NCBI RefSeq assembly: GCF_002895485.1 | Contig: NZ_AZRK01000044.1 | Coordinates: 1 to 64,000, forward strand | Length of the DNA: 64,000 nt | Direction of reading: 5' to 3' | Source: Petrotoga sp. 9PWA.NaAc.5.4 | GTDB taxonomy: Bacteria; Thermotogota; Thermotogae; Petrotogales; Petrotogaceae | Shown: piece by piece, positions 30,776 through 39,829 of the stretch | Position numbering within the stretch: the stretch's first letter is position 1 | Layout of the letters: every line of letters starts with the position of its first letter | Made by a program: the position numbers and the translations under genes | Notes under the pieces: model-generated | Seen by the model: only the letters and a program-made list of their open reading frames with translations | Databases searched by the model: none | Told to the model about the DNA's origin: nothing

Positions 30776-31549
30776 ATGAATTTTTTTGAAAAAATCCCCA
30801 AAGAGACCAAAGTTTCTCCTATTTCTAAAGAACTATATTTAAAAGGTGATAAAGATGTAGCCGTCTTGATTTTACATGGTTATACAGGATCTCCGCACGA
30901 TATGTATTATATAGGTAGAGAAATAAACAAAGCGGGTTTCACAATTTATATTCCTAGATTATCTGGGCATGGTACTAATTCGATAGATTTTTTAAACTCT
31001 TCTTGGAAAGATTGGCTCAGAAAATCTTATGAGTCATATTTAAATTTAAAATCTTATTATGAGAAAACTTATGTATTAGGTTTATCTATGGGAGGAGTGT
31101 TAGCAACTATTTTAGCTGAAAAGTTTGAAATCGAAAAGGTAGTATTGGCAGCACCTGCTTTATTAACTGTTGATTGGAGAATTAAACTAACTCCTTTTAT
31201 GAAATTTTTTATTAAAAGAATTCCTAAAAAAAACGTTCAGACTTTTGATGACCATAATTTAGATTTCTTAGCGAAAAATTATTGGAATTACGATTGGCCT
31301 TCTAAAGCAGCAGACTTGTATAAATTGGAGAGGTTAGCTGTAAAAAATCTCGGTGACATAAAATCAAAGTTGTTTGTTATTCTTTCAGAAAAAGACGACG
31401 CAGTTCCCCTCAGTGTAAAAAACTTAATAGAAACCCATGTACATTCCAATTATGATTTCCTAATTTTGAAAGAAAGTGGTCATGTTGTTGTGAACGATAT
31501 AGAAAAAGAAACAGTAGCCAAAGAAACTATAAATTGGCTATTGAACTAA
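30776..31549 (+). CDS. Alpha/beta-hydrolase, carboxylesterase or monoacylglycerol-lipase type
   Basis: This 257-residue cytoplasmic hydrolase has the nucleophile elbow GLSMGG with S104, the oxyanion segment LHGYTGSP (33-40), a probable catalytic Asp in SEKDDAVPL and His in ESGHVV. It resembles small thermophilic carboxylesterases such as Est30. Typical substrates are short acyl esters. The start ATG follows AAAGGAGAA. It is the last plus-strand gene before the convergent aromatic operon. Confidence 0.87.
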   Translation: MNFFEKIPKETKVSPISKELYLKGDKDVAVLILHGYTGSPHDMYYIGREINKAGFTIYIPRLSGHGTNSIDFLNSSWKDWLRKSYESYLNLKSYYEKTYVLGLSMGGVLATILAEKFEIEKVVLAAPALLTVDWRIKLTPFMKFFIKRIPKKNVQTFDDHNLDFLAKNYWNYDWPSKAADLYKLERLAVKNLGDIKSKLFVILSEKDDAVPLSVKNLIETHVHSNYDFLILKESGHVVVNDIEKETVAKETINWLLN

Positions 31550-31550
31550 T

Positions 31551-31575
31551 AGTCGTATGATGACGTCTTTTTTTT
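31551..31575 (+). terminator. Weak terminator between convergent genes
   Basis: AGTCGT and ACGTCT can pair with one mismatch around ATGATG, followed by eight T residues. The stem is short, but the site lies right after the hydrolase stop. Confidence 0.45.
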
Positions 31576-31586
31576 CTATGCCAACT

Positions 31587-32009
31587 TTAAGTCCTTTTGT
31601 TTTTAATATATTCTAATGCTAAGATATATCCATCGAACCCTAATCCAGAAATAATACCGTCGCAGGAGGCTGCGGTCACAGAAGTCTCTCTAAAACTTTC
31701 TCTTGCCAATATATTTGTTAAGTGAACTTCGATTTTTGGAACTTTTGCAATTTCCAAAGCATCTCTTATGGCATAAGAATAATGAGTATAAGCTCCAGGG
31801 TTTATAATTATTGCTTGGTAGTTCAATTTTTGAATCCTATCGATTATATTTCCTTCGGAATTAGATTGAAATAGCTCTACTTCTAAATTGTTATTTTTTG
31901 CGTATTCGTTTATAGTTCTTTGTAAATCTTGGTAACTACCGCTTCCATAAATTTCCTGTGGTCTTTTTCCAAGCATGTTTAAATTTGGGCCGTTTATTAT
32001 TAAAATCAT
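31587..32009 (-). CDS. aroQ: Type II 3-dehydroquinate dehydratase
   Basis: AroQ dehydrates 3-dehydroquinate to 3-dehydroshikimate. The 140-residue length and opening ILIINGPNLNMLGKRPQEIYG are typical of type II enzymes. IINPGAYTHYSYAIRDAL carries the conserved Asn/His region, and VEVHLTN-like IEVHLTN follows. The start is ATG 32009, behind GGAGGG at good spacing. It is the last gene of the aromatic operon, 184 bp after aroKB. Confidence 0.95.
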   Translation of the reverse strand: MILIINGPNLNMLGKRPQEIYGSGSYQDLQRTINEYAKNNNLEVELFQSNSEGNIIDRIQKLNYQAIIINPGAYTHYSYAIRDALEIAKVPKIEVHLTNILARESFRETSVTAASCDGIISGLGFDGYILALEYIKNKRT

Positions 32010-32193
32010 ATATTCCCTCCTATCGAATTTGAAATAGTAACTTTCCTTCAAGTTAGTCAAACCTAAATTTTTATTTTATAAAAATCCTTTTTCCAAAAGT
32101 AAAATCTCAAAGTCAGATTTATAGGTTACCTTTTCGCATTTTTCAATAATTATAAATGAGAGATTTTAAAAAGTTTCATTTAAATGATCGGGC

Positions 32194-33687
32194 TTATAGG
32201 GAATTTTTTAATACAGAATATTCAATTTCCTCTAAAGTAACGTTCCCAGGAGACTTTAAAATAGGTATTTTTATTTTTTTAGAATTTTCCGCTTTTTTAT
32301 CGTTGATAAGGTAATAAAATAACTCTTCTTTATTTATTTCGATATTTCTAATGTTTTCTGAAACAAGGTATTCTAAAGTATTTTTAATTTCTTGATAACA
32401 TTTCTCATCTGTTAAATTGTATTTTTTAAATAACTCTAATTCTTTAAGTAATCCCCATCCAACTGATAAACCATGTGCAATTCCAGTAGATGCTTCAAAC
32501 GCATGTCCTAAGGTATGCCCCAAATTCAAAAAACTTCTTGATCCTATATCTCTAAAATCTTCTTGTACTATTCGTATTTTCTCTTCTACAGCCCATTTTA
32601 TAAAATTACTTAATTTTTCAAGATTACGATTCAATAATTCATTCAAGTTTTCTTTAAAAAAACTATAAAAATCTCTACCAGCTATTAAAGCCATCTTATA
32701 TCCTTCTATTAGACCTTCTCTGTAAATTTCTTCGTCTAATGATAAAAGAGAAAGAGGGTCTATTATGACTTCGTTAGGTAAGTTTATAGTTCCAACAACA
32801 TTTTTGTATTTTTTAAAATCTATTCCATTCTTTCCTCCAATAGAAGCATCTATTTGTGCGAGTAATGTCGTTGGATAAAATGTAAAATTCATACCCCTTT
32901 TATAAGTTGATGCTACAAAACCTGTGAAATCAGTAATTGTACCTCCACCAATTCCGCAGAGAAAATCTTTTCTTGAAACGTTGTTTTCAAGTAGTTGTTC
33001 GTAAGCTTTTGAAACATAAGATATATCTTTTACTCTCTCCCCATTTGGGAAAATAAACTTTTTATTTGAGAAAAAATTTCCATATAAGCTGTTAACTTTT
33101 TCATTTGTAAAAATTATCCATTCTTTCGGCACTAATTTTAAAGCTCCCATTTGTATACGAACCTTTTGAAATGACGAATCTATCTCCAATTTTTCGTATA
33201 TATTTAAAGTATATAAAATTTTAGCTGTAGCTTCCCACTCGTTAAGACTAGTAATATCAACAGTTTCAAAAATTTCATATAACTCTTTTCTTTGATTGTA
33301 TATTTCTAAAATTTTTTCTTTATTATTTAATAAAAGAGGTCTATTTTCAACTGAAACACGATTTTTTAATTCTATAGGATCTACTTTTAAATATATTGTT
33401 TTTTGATTTTTCAGTAATTCACGATTTTTAGGGTTTAAAATTATACCTCCACCAGTAGATACAACTAAATCTTCTCTTCTTTTCAATAACGATTCAAGTA
33501 TTTGATTTTCCAACTTTCTAAAATATATTTCACCTTTTTTTTCAAATATTTCTTTTATTTCCATATGGTGGGATTTCTCTATTTCTTCATCTGTATCTAT
33601 ATAAGGTATAGATAAGATTTTAGAAATCATTTTTGCAAGTGTTGTTTTACCTGAGCCCATCATTCCAATTAAAAATATTTTACTCAA
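32194..33687 (-). CDS. aroKB: Bifunctional shikimate kinase / 3-dehydroquinate synthase
   Basis: The 497-residue protein joins two shikimate-pathway enzymes. Residues 1-165 are AroK: P-loop GMMGSGKTT (8-16), DTDEEIE and STGGG. The rest is AroB, which cyclises DAHP to 3-dehydroquinate with NAD+ and a metal: GGGTITDFTGFVASTYKRG, PTTLLAQIDASIGGKNG and LGHTLGHAFE (metal His). The same fusion is known in Thermotoga. The start is TTG 33687, seven bases after GAGGAGG. A 467-bp gap with a two-copy repeat array separates it from aroC. Confidence 0.95.
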   Translation of the reverse strand: MSKIFLIGMMGSGKTTLAKMISKILSIPYIDTDEEIEKSHHMEIKEIFEKKGEIYFRKLENQILESLLKRREDLVVSTGGGIILNPKNRELLKNQKTIYLKVDPIELKNRVSVENRPLLLNNKEKILEIYNQRKELYEIFETVDITSLNEWEATAKILYTLNIYEKLEIDSSFQKVRIQMGALKLVPKEWIIFTNEKVNSLYGNFFSNKKFIFPNGERVKDISYVSKAYEQLLENNVSRKDFLCGIGGGTITDFTGFVASTYKRGMNFTFYPTTLLAQIDASIGGKNGIDFKKYKNVVGTINLPNEVIIDPLSLLSLDEEIYREGLIEGYKMALIAGRDFYSFFKENLNELLNRNLEKLSNFIKWAVEEKIRIVQEDFRDIGSRSFLNLGHTLGHAFEASTGIAHGLSVGWGLLKELELFKKYNLTDEKCYQEIKNTLEYLVSENIRNIEINKEELFYYLINDKKAENSKKIKIPILKSPGNVTLEEIEYSVLKNSL

Positions 33688-33723
33688 CTTTTGTCCTCCT
33701 CGTATAATGATCACTACTGTCTT

Positions 33724-34130
33724 AAGAAATTTCAAAACACAGATTCTATAAATATTTCAACGTTTAGTTTTTTAAAAAATACTTCCATAACTCTAATTCT
33801 TACTAAAGTACTTTTAACTTTTTCGCTAAGTGTAGCGAAGAAAAGGGGAGAGGGCTCCGCCCTGGACCCATTTTAAATTCAAAAAAACATTATTTTTATA
33901 AAATTCTTATTTCTAAAGTGCCTATCTAATTCTCACAAAATATGAATTTCTTTAACCTCTTCGCGACGTGTAACTAAGGAGAGAGGGAGGGCTCCGCCCT
34001 GGACCCGTTATAAATTCAAAAAAAATTATTTTATTGACTAATTGTAAAGACGTGCTATAAGTACCTCTGATGTTTTTTAAATAAGCTCATTATAAAAATT
34101 CAAAAATCTTTATTTCTAAAGTCTTATTAT
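33724..34130 (-). repeat. Two MITE-like element copies inside the aromatic operon
   Basis: In minus orientation two units are visible. Their centres are GGGCGGAGCCCTC, complement near 33853 and 33988. The unit nearest aroKB has the covarying hairpin TTCGCTA/TAGCGAA, and its 3' half covers 33724-33835. The junction, ATTTCTAAAGTG on the plus strand, is near 33910. The array lies between aroC and aroKB and points in the direction of aroKB transcription. Confidence 0.85.
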
Positions 34131-34154
34131 AAAAGTTAAATTATTTTTATAAAA

Positions 34155-35288
34155 TCAACCTTCGATATTAAAATCATTAGCATACTTTTTAAAATACCTT
34201 TCTTTCATTAGATCTATATTGTCGTTTCCAAAACCATCTATTATTTCTTCCATTAATATTATAGCCAATGTACATTCTGTTATGACTGTTGCAGCAGGAA
34301 TAATGACAGAATCAGACCTTATATAAGGAGCTTTTTCACTTTCTTTTGTCTTTAAATTAACTGAATCCAAAGGTTTAGCAAGTGTTGATATTGGTTTAAA
34401 ATATGTCGTAACCACAATATTTTCTCCGTTTGTAATTCCACCTTCTATTCCGCCGGCATAGTTTTTAGACCGGCTAATTTTGTTGTCAATTAATATAAAT
34501 GGATCTTGATATTCTGTTCCAGTTAAACTCACATCTTGATGTCCAATGAATACTCCTTTTACAGAAGGAATAGACATAAAATATTTCCCTATTTTCGAAT
34601 CAACTTTGTTAAATACGTCCGTATAACTTCCAAGGCCAGGTTTTACATTTGTAGCGAAAGTCTTTATACTTCCACCTAAGGTTGTAGCTTTCATCAAAGC
34701 GTTACTTCTTATTTCTTCTATCATTTTTTTTGATTCATCTTCAAAAGGGCATTGAACTTCAGATTCATTACGCTTTTGAATGTATAAATCAAAATTGTTT
34801 TGAACTTCATCAAATAACTCATCTTTAATTTCTACCCTTCCTATAGATCTTACAAAACTAATTGTTTGAATTTCAAAATTTTCCAAAAATTGTTTAGCAA
34901 TACTTCCTATAGCTGTTAATACACTTGTCCAGCGAGCGCTATTTCTTTCAGTATAAATATTTAAATCTTGCAATCTATATTTATTCCATCCGCTATAGTC
35001 TCCATGCCCAGGTCTGGGAACGTATCTTTCATCTTTTATAGGATTTTGAGCTTTATTTTGTATAGAAAGAACTAATGGTGCTCCCGTAGTTACTCCTTTC
35101 CATAATCCTGAAATAATTTGAACCTCATCTTTTTCTAATTTCATTCTATTTCCTCTTGCGTATCCTGACTGTCTTCTTTTTAAATTTTCGTTTATTTTTT
35201 CAATTTCTAAATTTAATCCTGCAGGAACTTCTTCAATAAATCCTATCATTTGACTACCATGCGAATCACCGGCTATTTTTATTTGCAT
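34155..35288 (-). CDS. aroC: Chorismate synthase
   Basis: AroC removes phosphate from EPSP to make chorismate, using reduced FMN without net redox. The 377-residue protein has the family motifs GDSHGSQMIGFIEEVPAG at the N-terminus, RPGHGDYSGWNKY, and the arginine-rich RRQSGYARGNR region. The middle GGIEGGITNGE matches the conserved GGIxGGxSNGx. Length is typical. It lies 50 bp after aroE with its own SD, in the aromatic operon. Confidence 0.95.
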   Translation of the reverse strand: MQIKIAGDSHGSQMIGFIEEVPAGLNLEIEKINENLKRRQSGYARGNRMKLEKDEVQIISGLWKGVTTGAPLVLSIQNKAQNPIKDERYVPRPGHGDYSGWNKYRLQDLNIYTERNSARWTSVLTAIGSIAKQFLENFEIQTISFVRSIGRVEIKDELFDEVQNNFDLYIQKRNESEVQCPFEDESKKMIEEIRSNALMKATTLGGSIKTFATNVKPGLGSYTDVFNKVDSKIGKYFMSIPSVKGVFIGHQDVSLTGTEYQDPFILIDNKISRSKNYAGGIEGGITNGENIVVTTYFKPISTLAKPLDSVNLKTKESEKAPYIRSDSVIIPAATVITECTLAIILMEEIIDGFGNDNIDLMKERYFKKYANDFNIEG

Positions 35289-35338
35289 CTTTTCACCTCT
35301 TAAATTGTAAAATCTAAGTAGCTAAAAAAATTCAGTTA

Positions 35339-36118
35339 TTATTTTTGAAAATCAGAAAATACTTTCTTGAATATCTCTTCTTGGTAAATATTCCAAATTT
35401 TTAAATTTTCTAAAGCTTGATAATACCAGAATATTTTTCCATCTAAACATGTTATATTATTTTTTTTAGCTAATTGTTGTAAAGGAGTATCGTTGTACAC
35501 TATATCATAGATGAAGGTTATATTTGATAAATCGCTATCGGTAAAATCAAAAGACTCTCCAAACATGCCAATTGAAGTAGAGTTTATAAGTGTTTTTACC
35601 TTTTTTATAACTATTTTTAAATTCTCAAACGGTTCTATATGTATTTCCAATTTATCGGAGAAATATTTTTTCAAGTTTTCAGCTTTTTCTTTTGTTCTAT
35701 TGACTAAAATGATTTCTTTTATATCTTTTTTGAATAATGTGTAAAGAATAGCTTTGCAAGCTCCTCCAGCTCCTATAATCAACACAGGAAGTTCAATTTC
35801 AACATTTTCAAGTGAATTGTAAAAACCTTTCCAATCAGTATTATAGCCTTTATTATGATAAATGCAGTTCACCGCACCAATTTCCTTGGCGTCTTCAACA
35901 GGTTCAACAAATTTGATAACTTTTTGTTTAAAGGGAACAGTAACATTTACTCCTTCGTAACTCTCCAAATAATATTCCGCTTTATTATCAAAATCTTTTG
36001 GTTCAATTACAATATCTTCGTAAATTGCGTTTATATCTGCCTTACGGAAATATTCATTAAAAACCTTTTTAGAAAGGCTTTCTTTTTGTGGATACTGAAA
36101 TAAACCATATTTTTTCAT
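35339..36118 (-). CDS. aroE: Shikimate dehydrogenase
   Basis: AroE reduces 3-dehydroshikimate to shikimate with NADPH. The 259-residue protein has NVTVPFK (the substrate-lysine motif) near residue 79, a Rossmann loop GAGGACKAILYTL, NRTKEKAENL for NADPH binding and NSTSIGM. Length fits, although the N-terminal segment YGLFQYPQKESLSKKVFNEYF deviates from the usual GxPIxHSxSP (the S-x-S feature is retained as SLSK). It is in the aromatic operon between aroA and aroC. Confidence 0.92.
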   Translation of the reverse strand: MKKYGLFQYPQKESLSKKVFNEYFRKADINAIYEDIVIEPKDFDNKAEYYLESYEGVNVTVPFKQKVIKFVEPVEDAKEIGAVNCIYHNKGYNTDWKGFYNSLENVEIELPVLIIGAGGACKAILYTLFKKDIKEIILVNRTKEKAENLKKYFSDKLEIHIEPFENLKIVIKKVKTLINSTSIGMFGESFDFTDSDLSNITFIYDIVYNDTPLQQLAKKNNITCLDGKIFWYYQALENLKIWNIYQEEIFKKVFSDFQK

Positions 36119-36153
36119 ATTTTCCTCCTACTACAACTTCTTTATGCTGCTTT

Positions 36154-37446
36154 TTATATCAAAGAGTTCAACGTTTCAAGAAAGTTTGGATATGAAATAT
36201 TCACACATTCAAAATTTTTAATTTTTATAGGATTTTCTGCGATTAGTCCTGCAATTGCAAGCGACATAGCTACTCTATGGTCGTTATAGCTTTCGCATAT
36301 ACAGTTTCCTTTTATTTTTTGTTTTCCGTTTATTTCAAAGCCATCTTCTTTCTCTATTATATTTATACCAATTCGCCTTAGTTCATCTGTTATCGCTTTT
36401 ATTCTATCTGTTTCCTTTACTCTCAACTCTTTTGCATCTTTAACTACAGTTTTGCCTTCCGCTTGGGTAGCAGCAACTGCCAAAATGGGTATCTCATCGA
36501 TTAAAGTTGGAATCATTTCTCCTTTAATTTCTACTGCCGTCAGTTTACTACTTTTAACTAATAAATCAGCTACAGGTTCATTGTTGAGAATTCTTTCATT
36601 CATTATCTCTATATTTGCCCCCATCATTTTTAGTACTTTTAATATCCCTATTCTTGTAGGATTAATACCAACATTTTTTATAAGAATAGATGAGTTCTTT
36701 GTAATTAGCGATGCAACCAAAAAGAAAGAAGCAGAAGAAATATCTCCGGGCACAAAAAGTTCTTTTCCATACAAGTTATAGGCGGGACCTTCTAAATTTA
36801 CAATATTTTCTTTTTCTAAAATATTGGCTCCCAAATACCTCAGCATTCTTTCGGTGTGGTCTCTTGACTTATAAGGTTCTATGACCGTTGTGACACCGTT
36901 GGCGTATAAAGCATTTATTAATATTGCAGACTTAACTTGTGCACTTGCAACCGGAGAATGATAAGTTATGGAAGAAATATTTTTTGATCCTAATATCGTA
37001 ATTGGAGCGTAGTTTCCGGATTTTCTGCCGTAGAAACGTCCTCCCATTTTGCTTAAAGGTTCTATAACTCTTTTCATAGGTCTTTTTCTAAGTGAATCGT
37101 CCCCTGTTATAACAGTATAAAAATCTTGAGCAGCCAGTACCCCCATTATTAATCTTATAGTAGTACCAGAATTTTTTGCGTTTAGTACATCTAAAGGTTC
37201 ACAAAAACTATGAAGGCCTTCCCCATTTATAATTAGTTCATTTGAATCAGTTTGTCGAATGTCAACGCCCAAAGATTTTAAAATATTCAACGTTGCTAAG
37301 GTATCTTCAGAAGTTAAAAAATTATAGACTTTTGTTTGCCCATTAGCAAGGGATCCAAAAATTAAAGCTCTATGCGATATTGACTTATCTCCTGGTACCG
37401 TTATTTCACCATCAATACTTTTAAGGGGAGTAATTTCTATTTCCAT
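36154..37446 (-). CDS. aroA: 3-phosphoshikimate 1-carboxyvinyltransferase (EPSP synthase)
   Basis: AroA joins phosphoenolpyruvate to shikimate-3-phosphate. The 430-residue protein has PGDKSISHRALIFGSLA, NAKNSGTTIRLIMGVLA (PEP site), RKRPMKRVIEPL and ESYNDHRVAMS. These are standard, with the second motif NSGTTIR rather than NAGTAxR, as in class II-type enzymes. The start ATG follows GGAGG. It is 17 bp from tyrA in the aromatic operon. Confidence 0.96.
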   Translation of the reverse strand: MEIEITPLKSIDGEITVPGDKSISHRALIFGSLANGQTKVYNFLTSEDTLATLNILKSLGVDIRQTDSNELIINGEGLHSFCEPLDVLNAKNSGTTIRLIMGVLAAQDFYTVITGDDSLRKRPMKRVIEPLSKMGGRFYGRKSGNYAPITILGSKNISSITYHSPVASAQVKSAILINALYANGVTTVIEPYKSRDHTERMLRYLGANILEKENIVNLEGPAYNLYGKELFVPGDISSASFFLVASLITKNSSILIKNVGINPTRIGILKVLKMMGANIEIMNERILNNEPVADLLVKSSKLTAVEIKGEMIPTLIDEIPILAVAATQAEGKTVVKDAKELRVKETDRIKAITDELRRIGINIIEKEDGFEINGKQKIKGNCICESYNDHRVAMSLAIAGLIAENPIKIKNFECVNISYPNFLETLNSLI

Positions 37447-37463
37447 TTTTACCTCCTGTTTGA

Positions 37464-38309
37464 TTATAACTTATTTCTAAATTCTCTTACTTGTTTTAGT
37501 TCTTCAACTATTTCTTTGTACTTATTCTCATTTAAGTTATTTTTAAAGTTTTGTATTTGACTTTCAAATATTTCGACAGAATTTAAAATATTTTCTTTAT
37601 TTTGTTTAAAAATATCTATCCATATAGTTGGATCGCTTTTGGCAAGTCTTGTAGTATCTTTAAAACCAGATCCCACTAATTTTAGAAAATCTTCATCTTT
37701 TTCTTTTAAAAGTGTTTTTGCAAGATAGAAAGAAACTATTTGGGGTAAATGACTTGTTACAGCAACGATTTTATCGTGTTTTTGGGCTTCCATTATTACA
37801 GGATTAGCTTCTATTTTATTTATTAGGCATCGAAACTTCTCAAATGCTTCATTAGAACATTTTTTTGTTTTCACAAGTACATATGGTTTATTTTTAAAAA
37901 GATCTTTTCTTGCAAACAAAGGTCCAGAATTTTCGGTACCCGCCATTGGGTGTCCTCCAATAAAATTTATGTTTTTATCTACGAAACTATCAAAAATTTT
38001 TACAATTTGGTACTTAGTACTTCCAACATCAGAAACAATTGTTCCTGGCTTTATAAGTTCAATTGTATTTGTTAAAATATCTTTTATACTTTCAACAGGT
38101 GTAGCAAAAATTATAATATCAGCTGTAGGAATACCATCTTGTAAATTCTCTATTTCGTCAATAGAACCTAATTTTAAAGCATCTTGAGAATTGGTTTTAT
38201 TTACATCATAACCACTTATTTTTCTTATTGAATTAGTCTCTTTAAAAGCTAACGCTAAAGAGGTTCCTATCAATCCTGTCCCAATTATCATTAACTTTTC
38301 AAAATTCAT
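37464..38309 (-). CDS. tyrA: Prephenate dehydrogenase
   Basis: TyrA oxidises prephenate (or arogenate) on the way to tyrosine. The 281-residue protein has the N-terminal Rossmann motif IIGTGLIGTSLA, FATPVESI, SDVGSTK and GGHPMAGTENSGP, then a helical C-terminal domain with VTSHLPQIVS. There is no ACT or chorismate mutase domain. The start is ATG 38309 behind GGGGGAAA; a longer ATG start at 38348 lacks an SD. It is the second gene of the operon. Confidence 0.93.
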   Translation of the reverse strand: MNFEKLMIIGTGLIGTSLALAFKETNSIRKISGYDVNKTNSQDALKLGSIDEIENLQDGIPTADIIIFATPVESIKDILTNTIELIKPGTIVSDVGSTKYQIVKIFDSFVDKNINFIGGHPMAGTENSGPLFARKDLFKNKPYVLVKTKKCSNEAFEKFRCLINKIEANPVIMEAQKHDKIVAVTSHLPQIVSFYLAKTLLKEKDEDFLKLVGSGFKDTTRLAKSDPTIWIDIFKQNKENILNSVEIFESQIQNFKNNLNENKYKEIVEELKQVREFRNKL

Positions 38310-38405
38310 AAATTTTCCCCCAGGATTGCGAATATCGTAAGTTCCCATTACGATAGCCGATTATGATTTTCAAAAAAACACATTTTTAAAGAATATATAA
38401 TAAAT

Positions 38406-39425
38406 TCATGATAAAACTTTATGCTCTATTTTTGCAAGAGTTCTTAAATTAGACATTAATTCCTTAAATTTTTCAAAGTCTAGGGATTGTTTACCATCAG
38501 ATAGAGCATTTTTGGGATCAGGATGGACTTCGACGATTATTCCATCTGCCCCTACTGCTAAAGCGGCTTTTGATAATGGAATTATGTACCTCCAATCTCC
38601 CGCAGCATGGCTTGGATCTACAATTATTGGAAGATGACTATATCTTTTTATTACAGGAATAGCAGTAATATCAAGTGTGTTTCTAATTTCATCTTCAAAT
38701 GTTCTAATACCTCTTTCACATAATATAACTTCATAATTTCCTTCGGACATTATATATTCAGCTGACATCAATAATTCTTTATATGTTGCAGATAAACCTC
38801 GTTTTAGTAAAACAGGTTTTTTTATCCTGCCAACCTCTTTTAATAAAGAGAAATTTTGCATGTTTCTTGCTCCAATCTGTAAAATATCTGCATATTTTGC
38901 TACTAATTCTACTTCTTTTGTGTCCATAACTTCTGTTACAATTTTAAGGCCGGTCTCTTCAGATGCTTCTTTTAAAATCTTTAATCCCTCTTCTTTTAAA
39001 CCTTGAAAAGAATAGGGAGATGTTCTTGGCTTATAAGCACCACCTCTCAAAAAATGAACCCCCTCTTCTTTTAACATTTTAGCAGTTTTTATAACTTGTT
39101 CTCTATTTTCCACAGCACAAGGACCAGCAATAACAGTAAAATTTTCTCCCCCTATTTTTATTCCTTCTACATTATAAATAGAGGGATTAGGTCTAAAGGT
39201 TCTGCTCGATAATTTGAATGGTTGGGTAATTTCCACCACTTTTTGCACCCCCGGAAAGGTACCGATGTTATTTAAAATATATTCTCTGTCACCTTCACCA
39301 ACGACACCTACAATTGTATGATTCTCGCCTTTATCTGGATGAGCTTTAAATCCAGCTTCTTCTACTTTCTTAATTACCCTGTGGATCTCTTCTTCTGTAG
39401 CATCTTCCTCCATTACAATAATCAT
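38406..39425 (-). CDS. aroF: DAHP synthase with N-terminal ferredoxin-like regulatory domain
   Basis: AroF condenses phosphoenolpyruvate and erythrose-4-phosphate, the first step of aromatic biosynthesis. The 339-residue protein has an N-terminal ferredoxin-like domain (about 1-66), as in the Thermotoga enzyme where it mediates feedback inhibition by tyrosine or phenylalanine. The barrel follows with [32 protein letters not shown] and DPSHAAG. The start is ATG 39425, eight bases after GGAGGTG; the in-frame TTG at 39443 overlaps that SD. It is the first structural gene behind the aromatic attenuator. Confidence 0.96.
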
Positions 39426-39458
39426 AAAAGAATTCACCTCCAAAGTTGTGTATATATT

Positions 39459-39489
39459 AAAAAAAGGTGTCTACAATTAAGTAGACACC
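39459..39489 (-). terminator. Attenuator terminator of the aromatic operon
   Basis: On the minus strand GGTGTCTAC (complement of 39481-39489) pairs with GTAGACACC (complement of 39466-39474) around TTAATT, followed by seven T residues (39459-39465). It ends 34 bp before the aroF start, so when formed it would stop transcription before the operon. Confidence 0.9.
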
Positions 39490-39552
39490 CATTTTGGAAT
39501 CTTTGATGCTATGTTTGCGTACGCACAAACAAAGGCACCAAAATGGGTGTCT
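39481..39552 (-). promoter_or_regulatory. Antiterminator pairing of the aromatic attenuator
   Basis: On the minus strand AGACACCCATTTTGG (complement of 39538-39552) pairs perfectly over 15 bp with CCAAAATGGGTGTCT (complement of 39483-39497). The second arm contains the left half of the terminator stem, so the two structures exclude each other. The first arm lies inside the leader-peptide frame, just after the aromatic codons. A nested GTTTG...CAAAC hairpin sits in the loop. Confidence 0.9.
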
Positions 39553-39610
39553 TTCTAAAATACCAATAATAAAACATATTAACTTTTTCAAAATAATTCT
39601 TGAAATTCAT
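39509..39610 (-). CDS. Aromatic-rich leader peptide of the shikimate operon
   Basis: A 33-codon frame starts at ATG 39610 behind AAAGAGG and ends at TAG 39509-39511. It encodes the run F-Y-Y-W-Y-F at residues 13-18, with further F or Y at 3, 6, 7 and 28. All three aromatic amino acids are therefore sampled in one run. The first antiterminator arm begins four bases after the last aromatic codon and lies within the frame. A ribosome stalled on the aromatic codons would leave that arm free to form the antiterminator; a ribosome translating on would mask it and let the terminator form. Logic inferred from classical amino-acid attenuators. Confidence 0.9.
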   Translation of the reverse strand: MNFKNYFEKVNMFYYWYFRKTPILVPLFVRTQT

Positions 39611-39663
39611 AACAAAACCTCTTTCTTAAATAGATTTATATATGTTTTCTTAATATTATAGTA

Positions 39664-39692
39664 ATTCTATCAAAAAGATCAAAAATTGTCAA
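39664..39692 (-). promoter_or_regulatory. Consensus promoter of the aromatic operon
   Basis: On the minus strand TTGACA (complement of 39687-39692), a 17-bp spacer and TAGAAT (complement of 39664-39669) form a near-perfect sigma-A promoter. Transcription would start near 39657, about 47 bases before the leader-peptide start. Confidence 0.85.
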
Positions 39693-39829
39693 CTATTATA
39701 TTAAATTTTTATTGATGATTTGAAATACGTAAAAAGTTATAAAGTATACATAACCGTAAAATAGTTTAAATAAAACCATGTTAACATAAATATTAGCAGC
39801 TTAATATTTTTGAGGTCATAATTGGCGTT

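Follow-up and report, generated by a model that had tools for sequence, protein, structure and literature searches.

The aro operon and its leader

The window, a stretch of 64,000 nucleotides from Petrotoga sp. 9PWA.NaAc.5.4, carries on its minus strand seven genes of aromatic amino acid biosynthesis preceded by a short stretch with a leader peptide ORF and a terminator. The first structural gene, aroF (38406-39425), encodes DAHP synthase and scores above the cut-offs of both NF006421 (513.5 bits) and TIGR01361 (414.2 bits); its Shine-Dalgarno sequence GGAGGTG is read directly at 39435-39441. It is followed by tyrA for prephenate dehydrogenase (37464-38348), aroA for EPSP synthase (36154-37446; TIGR01356, above cut-off), aroE for shikimate dehydrogenase (35339-36118), aroC for chorismate synthase (34155-35288; TIGR00033, above cut-off), aroKB for a fusion of shikimate kinase and 3-dehydroquinate synthase (32194-33735; NF010556, above cut-off) and aroQ for type II 3-dehydroquinate dehydratase (31587-32060; TIGR01088, above cut-off), the starts of tyrA, aroKB and aroQ being uncertain. 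The assignment of all seven to the aromatic pathway in the earlier note is borne out by model matches, with those of tyrA (NF006307, 275.5 bits against 295) and aroE (TIGR00507, 165.8 bits against 200.2) falling below the curated cut-offs. For tyrA, all 19 listed hits are prephenate or arogenate dehydrogenases, one of them within a bifunctional enzyme, and none passes its own cut-off. A gap of about 420 bp separates aroKB from aroC. The seven genes probably form a single transcript.

The promoter, ribosome binding site, leader peptide and alternative stems described in the earlier note are all found at this locus. The predicted promoter (39664-39692) reads TTGACA-17-TAGAAT, with the -35 hexamer at 39692-39687, the -10 hexamer at 39669-39664 and a TG before the latter, and is with 11 of 12 consensus matches the best of the region. 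The Shine-Dalgarno sequence AAAGAGG (39618-39624) precedes a leader ORF of 33 amino acids, MNFKNYFEKVNMFYYWYFRKTPILVPLFVRTQT (39509-39610), in which Phe-Tyr-Tyr-Trp-Tyr-Phe (FYYWYF) occupies residues 13-18 (39557-39574). Arm 2, the 5′ arm of the antiterminator (AGACACCCATTTTGG, 39538-39552), lies within the leader ORF and pairs over 15 bp with arm 3 (CCAAAATGGGTGTCT, 39483-39497). The 3′ half of arm 3 (39489-39483) is at the same time the left arm of a 9-bp intrinsic terminator hairpin, GGTGTCTAC-TTAATT-GTAGACACC (39466-39489), which is followed by seven T (39459-39465). Both structures are far more stable than expected from composition, with -34.2 kcal/mol for the antiterminator stretch 39554-39481 (z -7.5) and -14.5 kcal/mol for the terminator stretch 39490-39466 (z -5.4), neither being equalled in 200 shuffles, and the leader's terminator is the only terminator-like site on either strand of 31400-39750.

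A further local hairpin, P1 (39531-39554; AAAG.CACC/GGTG.CTTT), is made by arm 2 itself and is a candidate 1:2 (pause or protector) hairpin on folding grounds. Folded by itself, the window copy reaches -5.9 kcal/mol (z -3.0), a value matched by two of 200 shuffles, and in a 50-nt context it is weak (z -0.6). The RNAalifold consensus of 18 aro and transporter copies consists of a slightly shorter P1 plus the terminator, the hairpin inside arm 2 pairing CACC with GGTG, a stem that AAG and the CCTT next to it lengthen. P1, the transporter-linked paralog, the trpE and his attenuator candidates and the phylum-wide family described below did not figure in the earlier note.

Conservation in the Petrotogaceae

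By blastn, the element is found upstream of aroF in nine of the 21 genomes of the family (G000-G002, G012-G017), and these retain the leader and both stems, the feature on whose conservation in close relatives the earlier note had staked its reading. It is absent from the other 12, of which two (G019, G020) have no detectable DAHP synthase of this aroF type; at the DAHP synthase loci of G003, G005 and G007-G011, no convincing aromatic leader was seen in the 600-800 bases scanned. The same nine genomes hold a second, diverged copy upstream of a TrpX-like ABC transporter, its leader reading ..QYFYFWYWKDT.. or near variants. In eight of the nine, the two copies match over 120-149 bases with 70-73% identity; in G001 the match spans 44 bases only. 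As the binding protein of this transporter scores 196.7 bits with the TrpX model, against a cut-off of 390 (PF04392, 220.6 bits), its designation as an aromatic amino acid transporter, TrpX by homology, is a putative one.

Two parts of the leader are maintained in these copies at different levels. The arm AAAGACACCC..TTGGTGCC is near-identical in aro and transporter copies and is read in different frames, as KTPILV in the former and KDTQFG in the latter, and is therefore conserved at the RNA level. The aromatic run is kept at the peptide level. In the seven most similar aro leaders, all five run columns (YYWYF) are invariant, in agreement with the codon conservation expected by the earlier note, compared with nine of 27 other columns; invariant run columns number 5/7 in the trpX leaders of nine genomes, 6/6 in the f8 trpX leaders (nine), 4/4 in the f2 trpX leaders (eight genomes) and 3/3 in the trpE leaders (nine). 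A synonymous codon change occurs in four of the 23 invariant run columns of these five leader groups. Around the run, differing codon pairs are nonsynonymous rather than synonymous in 88 versus 12 cases for aro and 47 versus 27 for trpX, and are likewise mostly nonsynonymous in the three other groups. From these alignments, only the aromatic run and the RNA arm are conserved, and the rest of the peptide drifts.

The exact sequence FYYWYF is confined to this genome, the other aro leaders reading YYWYF (six), YYYWF or YYYYYWF. Phe at position 13 is thus absent from the relatives, and in the eight other aro leaders with all three residues Phe is the last codon of the run only. Formal covariation is weak within the family because the arms hardly vary: the observed score was reached by 14, 174 and 158 of 500 shuffles in three alignments, in which 2, 1 and 2 pairs show double changes. 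The P1 hairpin of the transporter leader is larger and pairs the TGG TAT TGG codons with the segment just downstream, in the position of a classical 1:2 hairpin. Its z ranges from -2.8 to -4.3 across the nine copies of the family, and in its alignment 96.3% of cells are paired, with one double change. Such 1:2-type hairpins are stronger in the trpX copies and in most trpE leaders than in the window copy.

Leader codons and downstream genes

Within the same nine genomes, leader codons track the products of the genes downstream, with Trp runs before trpE, His runs before hisG and mixed Phe, Tyr and Trp (FYW) runs before the aro operon and the transporter. The trpE leader reads NWWWHL or TWWWHL and is accompanied by a terminator and alternative stems, its arm 2:3 duplexes having p values of 0.010-0.040; a Trp-run leader is present at 10 of the 16 trpE loci examined. 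A WWTW stretch at locus L203 belongs to a far-upstream ORF and was left out of that count. An HHH leader followed by a terminator precedes hisG at nine of the 12 loci examined, in the same nine genomes. None of nine pheA loci showed an aromatic leader with terminator in a scan that a leader with fewer aromatic codons would escape, and nothing convincing lies within 2.5 kb of the genome's own pheA; G000 carries both pheA and trpE. The ilvB loci gave no leader in nine of nine cases under a criterion of six out of seven Ile, Leu or Val residues plus a Shine-Dalgarno-like stretch. A script for an aromatic leader with terminator matched 27 of 30 TrpX loci, one of 25 pheA or trpE loci and none of 21 ilvB or hisG loci. 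The single pheA/trpE match is weak and is not the Trp leader.

Related scaffolds also occur with exchanged sensor codons. Genome G056 uses one scaffold for its aro (FFYAYWF), trpX (FSYAYWF) and trpE (WWWLW) leaders, G011 has WWW, FSFYFYYW and FSFF leaders before three transporter copies, and G038 has leaders with FYFYYFWW and WWW. In two f6 genomes, three tandem transporters are preceded in the same order by Phe leaders (QQFVFAFR, HSFAFAFR), mixed leaders (SVYYFWYK, NVYGFWYR) and Tyr leaders (FVYAYYR, LYAYYR). Over the alignable N-terminal stretches of 32-51 residues to which the comparison is limited, transporters with like-coded leaders are identical at 45/51, 31/37 and 31/36 positions, and all unlike pairs have lower identity.

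Distribution across the Thermotogota

A model built from the 18 family copies (R1) matched 16 of 103 phylum genomes at E≤0.01. Among its new members, G071 and G073, from another family, have an aroF leader with YYYYYC, and the DAHP synthase of G071 is 79% identical to that of the window, nearly as close as the 80% of G014 from the same family, which suggests transfer. Further new members are a WW leader upstream of a DAHP synthase in G018 and transporter leaders with FFAYYWY in G003 and Phe only in G011. Two genomes of genus g4 have the Tyr-run leaders YCYYY and YYYY before DAHP synthase with other arm sequences. The R1 matches in G077 and G083 have no convincing aromatic leader and were set aside as plain hairpins or chance. 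A second model (R2) matched 48 of the 103 genomes at E≤0.01, many weakly, and 15 places were inspected. These matches include three Met leaders. Nothing convincing was seen at G000:C14, and the matches at G003:C7, G008 (two), G011:C11 (within a coding gene), G014:C1:867798 and G067:C1:1989097, which have no convincing aromatic leader, were attributed to plain hairpins or chance. A scan of the genome contigs collection for DAHP synthase returned 80 loci, with no Thermotogota name among the titles.

The association is most regular for the transporter. TrpX model matches occur in 49 of the 103 genomes at E≤0.001, none of them over the model cut-off, and each of the 40 genomes whose TrpX match is strong (E≤1e-60) has an aromatic leader before at least one copy (39 in the compiled set and G046 seen separately), some leaders having been picked out visually or by a less strict script requiring three aromatic residues in seven. 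Examples are FAYAYWWFRG, FAYAYWFRRN and SYYYWYGKG. The compiled set comprises 70 leaders, 46 of trpX, 11 of aro, 10 of trpE and three of other DAHP synthases, and a terminator was found by script in 69; G025 was omitted from the duplex test, for which its script gave no terminator, though another script found one. Compared with 200 shuffles each, 66 of the 69 have a better arm 2:3 duplex at p≤0.05 (median z -4.5), and 52 reach the floor of p 0.005, although these are not 69 independent tests, since the set was chosen by aromatic content and contains many close relatives. The exceptions are G011a (p 0.075), G027c (p 0.055) and the trpE leader of G018 (p 0.657); for the last, the wrong terminator was probably chosen. 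The arm sequences of different families (GACACCC, GCCCTCTTCC, AACGTCC, GGGCATCCAC, GCACTTA) differ, each being complementary to its own arm 3, and it is this contrast between families that supports the pairing where covariation within the Petrotogaceae is weak. P1 hairpins have z below -1.5 in 52 of 69 leaders. Relative to the last aromatic codon, arm 2 starts between -3 and +8 nt in aro and trpX leaders, with a median of 3 in each.

When classified by the composition of the densest eight residues, the trpX leaders comprise 34 with all three aromatic residues, four with Tyr and Trp, three with Phe, two with Phe and Tyr and one each with Phe and Trp, Trp, and Tyr. The aro leaders comprise nine with all three and two with Tyr, all 10 trpE leaders have Trp, and the three other DAHP synthase leaders have Phe and Tyr, Tyr, and Trp, respectively. 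By eye, the leader classed as Phe and Trp (G011c) is a WWW run preceded at some distance by a single Phe.

The earlier note knew of no three-way leader described in the Thermotogota, and a search of the mostly open-access literature likewise returned no paper seen to describe these leaders, although an attenuation survey might list some. In the parts of the literature consulted, amino acid attenuators in Rfam-based surveys are almost wholly from gamma-proteobacteria, the survey consulted covering the four attenuators then in Rfam (PMC3766115), further attenuators have been predicted in Actinobacteria (PMC1262725), and Thermotogae are named among the groups with few genomes or related strains (PMC4833913).

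Proposed mechanism

As read from the sequences, the two stems are mutually exclusive, the element is conserved and codon content follows the genes downstream. Ribosome-mediated attenuation of the aro operon by aromatic amino acids is the interpretation that we hold with high confidence, Tyr and Trp being its safest inputs. RNA polymerase would transcribe the leader while a ribosome translates it. When the supply of charged Phe, Tyr or Trp tRNA falls short, the ribosome would stall in FYYWYF, and arm 2, which starts a few bases past this run, would be free to pair with arm 3, so that the operon is read. When all three are plentiful, the ribosome would cover arm 2, arm 3 would pair with arm 4, and transcription is predicted to stop near 39459. 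P1 may refold behind the passing ribosome and could serve to pause the polymerase or to lock arm 2 once the ribosome has passed.

Stalling was followed in 13 of the 70 leaders with a partition-function model in which the ribosome covers a footprint of constant size. At 37 C, arm 3 of the window leader has a pairing of 0.8 as long as the A site is no further than W16, 0.5 when it is at Y17 or F18, about 0.6 over the next ten codons and 0.8 near the stop, a modest fall from 0.8 to 0.5-0.6 that corresponds to partial masking. The modelled antiterminator also forms when the ribosome is absent (0.79) or stands at the stop codon (0.8). In these two states the model yields no termination, a real gap, and termination under plenty would require co-transcriptional timing or P1, which the model lacks. 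The fall is sharper, and at the end of the aromatic run, in G063, G043 and G026a, lies inside the Tyr run in G071, and is not clear in two of the 13 (G000 trpE, G026c trpX). In the model, the aromatic run tends to sit where a stall would free arm 2 and where the next steps would mask it.

The fully permissive zone takes in F13, Y14, Y15 and W16, so that Phe, Tyr and Trp could each be sensed by the window leader. Read as it is from the codons only, an actual response to all three is somewhat probable. Tyr and Trp are on the sequence evidence the stronger candidates and Phe the weakest predicted input, since F13 is found in this genome only and Phe is just the last codon of the run in the eight other aro leaders with all three residues. 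In the aro leader of G014, the modelled pairing at this last-codon Phe is 0.3 at 37 C.

Alternative explanations

The rival that carries most weight is that only Tyr, only Trp, these two together, or only Phe (as in AroR) is an effective input, with the other aromatic codons as passengers or as a means of slowing the ribosome, a possible though somewhat improbable reading. The Tyr-only relatives of the aro leader in G071 and G073 speak for it, as do the eight other aro leaders with all three residues, where Phe comes last in the run and pairing is partial in the model, and the AroR leader of Corynebacterium glutamicum, whose Phe-Tyr-Phe is described as responding to Phe and not to Tyr in the part of the source consulted (PMC11802643). 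It has to be set against the window leader itself, in which stalls at F13, Y14, Y15 and W16 all leave the antiterminator free in the model (0.8), and against the recurrence of all three residues, with differing arm sequences, in nine of the 11 aro leaders and 34 of the 46 trpX leaders. That the aromatic run, its short ORF and the terminator lie together by chance has negligible probability, even though the window is A+T-rich (GC 0.297) and Phe and Tyr codons are accordingly frequent. An ATG ORF with at least six consecutive Phe, Trp or Tyr residues arose in eight of 5000 shuffles of the region, and one including all three residues in three of 5000, besides the failure of 200 shuffles to match either the antiterminator or the terminator energy; a script for a short ORF with four aromatic residues in seven followed by a terminator matched a single place on both strands of the window, namely this leader. 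Chance is refuted by conservation in nine genomes, to which related architecture throughout the phylum is added.

An RNA element read by a riboswitch, a T-box or an RNA-binding protein, with an incidental ORF, would account for the strong conservation of the arm between aro and trpX copies despite the change of frame and for P1 hairpins being as common as they are. This is very unlikely given that the aromatic codons are conserved while the remaining peptide drifts, and that they vary by operon within one genome (WWW, HHH, FYW). Rfam likewise offers no such reader: at the gathering level, the window gave no match and 14 related loci gave tRNAs only, and a search of 39400-39720 up to E 5 gave no Trp, Phe, His, Leu or Thr leader and no T-box. 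The six matches of that search, to miRNA, lncRNA, snRNA and unrelated sRNA families, had E-values at chance level. By analogy with the trans action reported for Sinorhizobium peTrpL in the portion of the source consulted (PMC7298713), the leader peptide itself might act in this way, a still less probable reading given the poor conservation of the peptide outside the aromatic run and the RNA arm. Specific support for a trans-acting peptide was not seen at this locus.

A wider form of the attenuation model, in which the window leader is a three-input Phe/Tyr/Trp OR gate and the Thermotogota share modular attenuators whose sensor codons, swapped on related RNA scaffolds, also label transporters, is evenly balanced between being right and wrong. 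If true, the sensor set would comprise all three aromatic residues, Tyr with Trp, Tyr, Phe and Trp, as well as His, and Met before a MetQ-like transporter, and the codons of a leader could be read as a barcode for what its transporter carries; the Phe-, mixed- and Tyr-coded leaders before three tandem TrpX-like transporters would be an example. A Thermotogota set with codons matching the controlled genes would show attenuation to be more widely spread and modular, and leader codons would give substrate predictions for transporters of unknown specificity, much as the T-box specifier has been used to predict transporter substrates in work consulted in part (PMC2494555). The number of amino acids that a single leader can sense could also be tested directly on such leaders.

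Comparison with known systems

T-box elements control aromatic biosynthesis and transport genes in Firmicutes, and a T-box resembles the leaders described here in naming its amino acid by a codon-like specifier; at the window leader, the sensor would instead be the translating ribosome, and no T-box was found. The trp, his and pheA operons of E. coli are the classical cases of ribosome-mediated attenuation. The window element is like them in its short translated leader with regulatory codons, its exclusive 2:3 and 3:4 stems and its U-run terminator before the first structural gene, and the trpE leader of the same genome is closer still, with candidate 1:2, 2:3 and 3:4 stems and Trp codons in arm 1. 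Unlike them, the window leader has three aromatic amino acids in one run, most of its arm 1 coincides with the front of arm 2, it has no Rfam match, and it would govern the common shikimate pathway, with a paralog that would govern a transporter. The ilvGMEDA and ilvBN leaders of E. coli contain codons for several branched-chain amino acids and provide the parallel of one leader serving a group of related amino acids made by a common pathway, albeit a branched-chain one. Measured against them, the earlier note draws the line too narrowly in stating that one or two amino acids are sensed by classical leaders. All five E. coli operons are named as attenuators in the part of the source consulted (PMC1183508). 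The other known case to set beside that view of the earlier note is the AroR leader of C. glutamicum, which lies with its Phe-Tyr-Phe upstream of DAHP synthase and for which, in the available part of the account, only Phe limitation matters and the Tyr codon gives no response (PMC11802643). Compared by that description, the aroR-aroF system belongs to another phylum, has no Trp codon mentioned and responds to Phe only, and it shares with the window element the role, proposed for the latter, of an attenuator of a DAHP synthase operon.

Candidate attenuators upstream of other operons

Several leaders, each a short open reading frame with sensor codons followed by a terminator, precede genes outside the aro operon. 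In the nine Petrotogaceae genomes that carry the FYW leader before aroF, the hisG operon is preceded by an HHH-containing leader (..NIHHHTWRGR..) and a strong terminator (loci L300-L308; for example L300 294-399 in G000:C45), making this arrangement a candidate His attenuator. The trpE leader of the same nine genomes is followed, by visual inspection, by a second, larger inverted repeat and T-run upstream of the structural gene, and this element is perhaps a second terminator. In locus L210 the repeat, which there reads for example AGAGGTTCTTCCTCCTT..AAGAACCTCTTTTTATTT, lies some 90 bases beyond the WWW codons.

In f2, another family of the phylum, a transporter gene is preceded by the leader NRIAMMMYGNALVSSGA and a terminator in all four genomes examined for that leader (G051, G048, G045 and G050; loci L272 127-205, L275, L276 and L277). 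The downstream transporter is of the NlpA/MetQ type by Pfam in L272, the other three resemble it by eye at their start, and the leader is a candidate ribosome attenuator sensing methionine. In G022, the genes downstream of the Trp-run leader INSAWWWHRSLFF and its terminator (C43, L266 208-381) are of the ferredoxin type, together with one resembling an aldehyde ferredoxin oxidoreductase gene; Trp control of such a target would be unexpected.

The aro operon within and beyond the family

In the window, aroC and aroKB are separated by approximately 420 bp (33736-34154) without any listed ORF of 80 aa. Minus-strand sequences resembling promoters lie in this gap, at 34153-34126 and 34118-34089, and suggest that the last two aro genes may be transcribed from a promoter of their own. 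An aro operon with the same RNA scaffold as that of the window also occurs in two genomes of a different family, G071 and G073 (L143 and L144), where the sensor codons are Tyr only. The G071 DAHP synthase is 79% identical to that of the window, and the operon appears to represent transfer between families together with an altered sensor.
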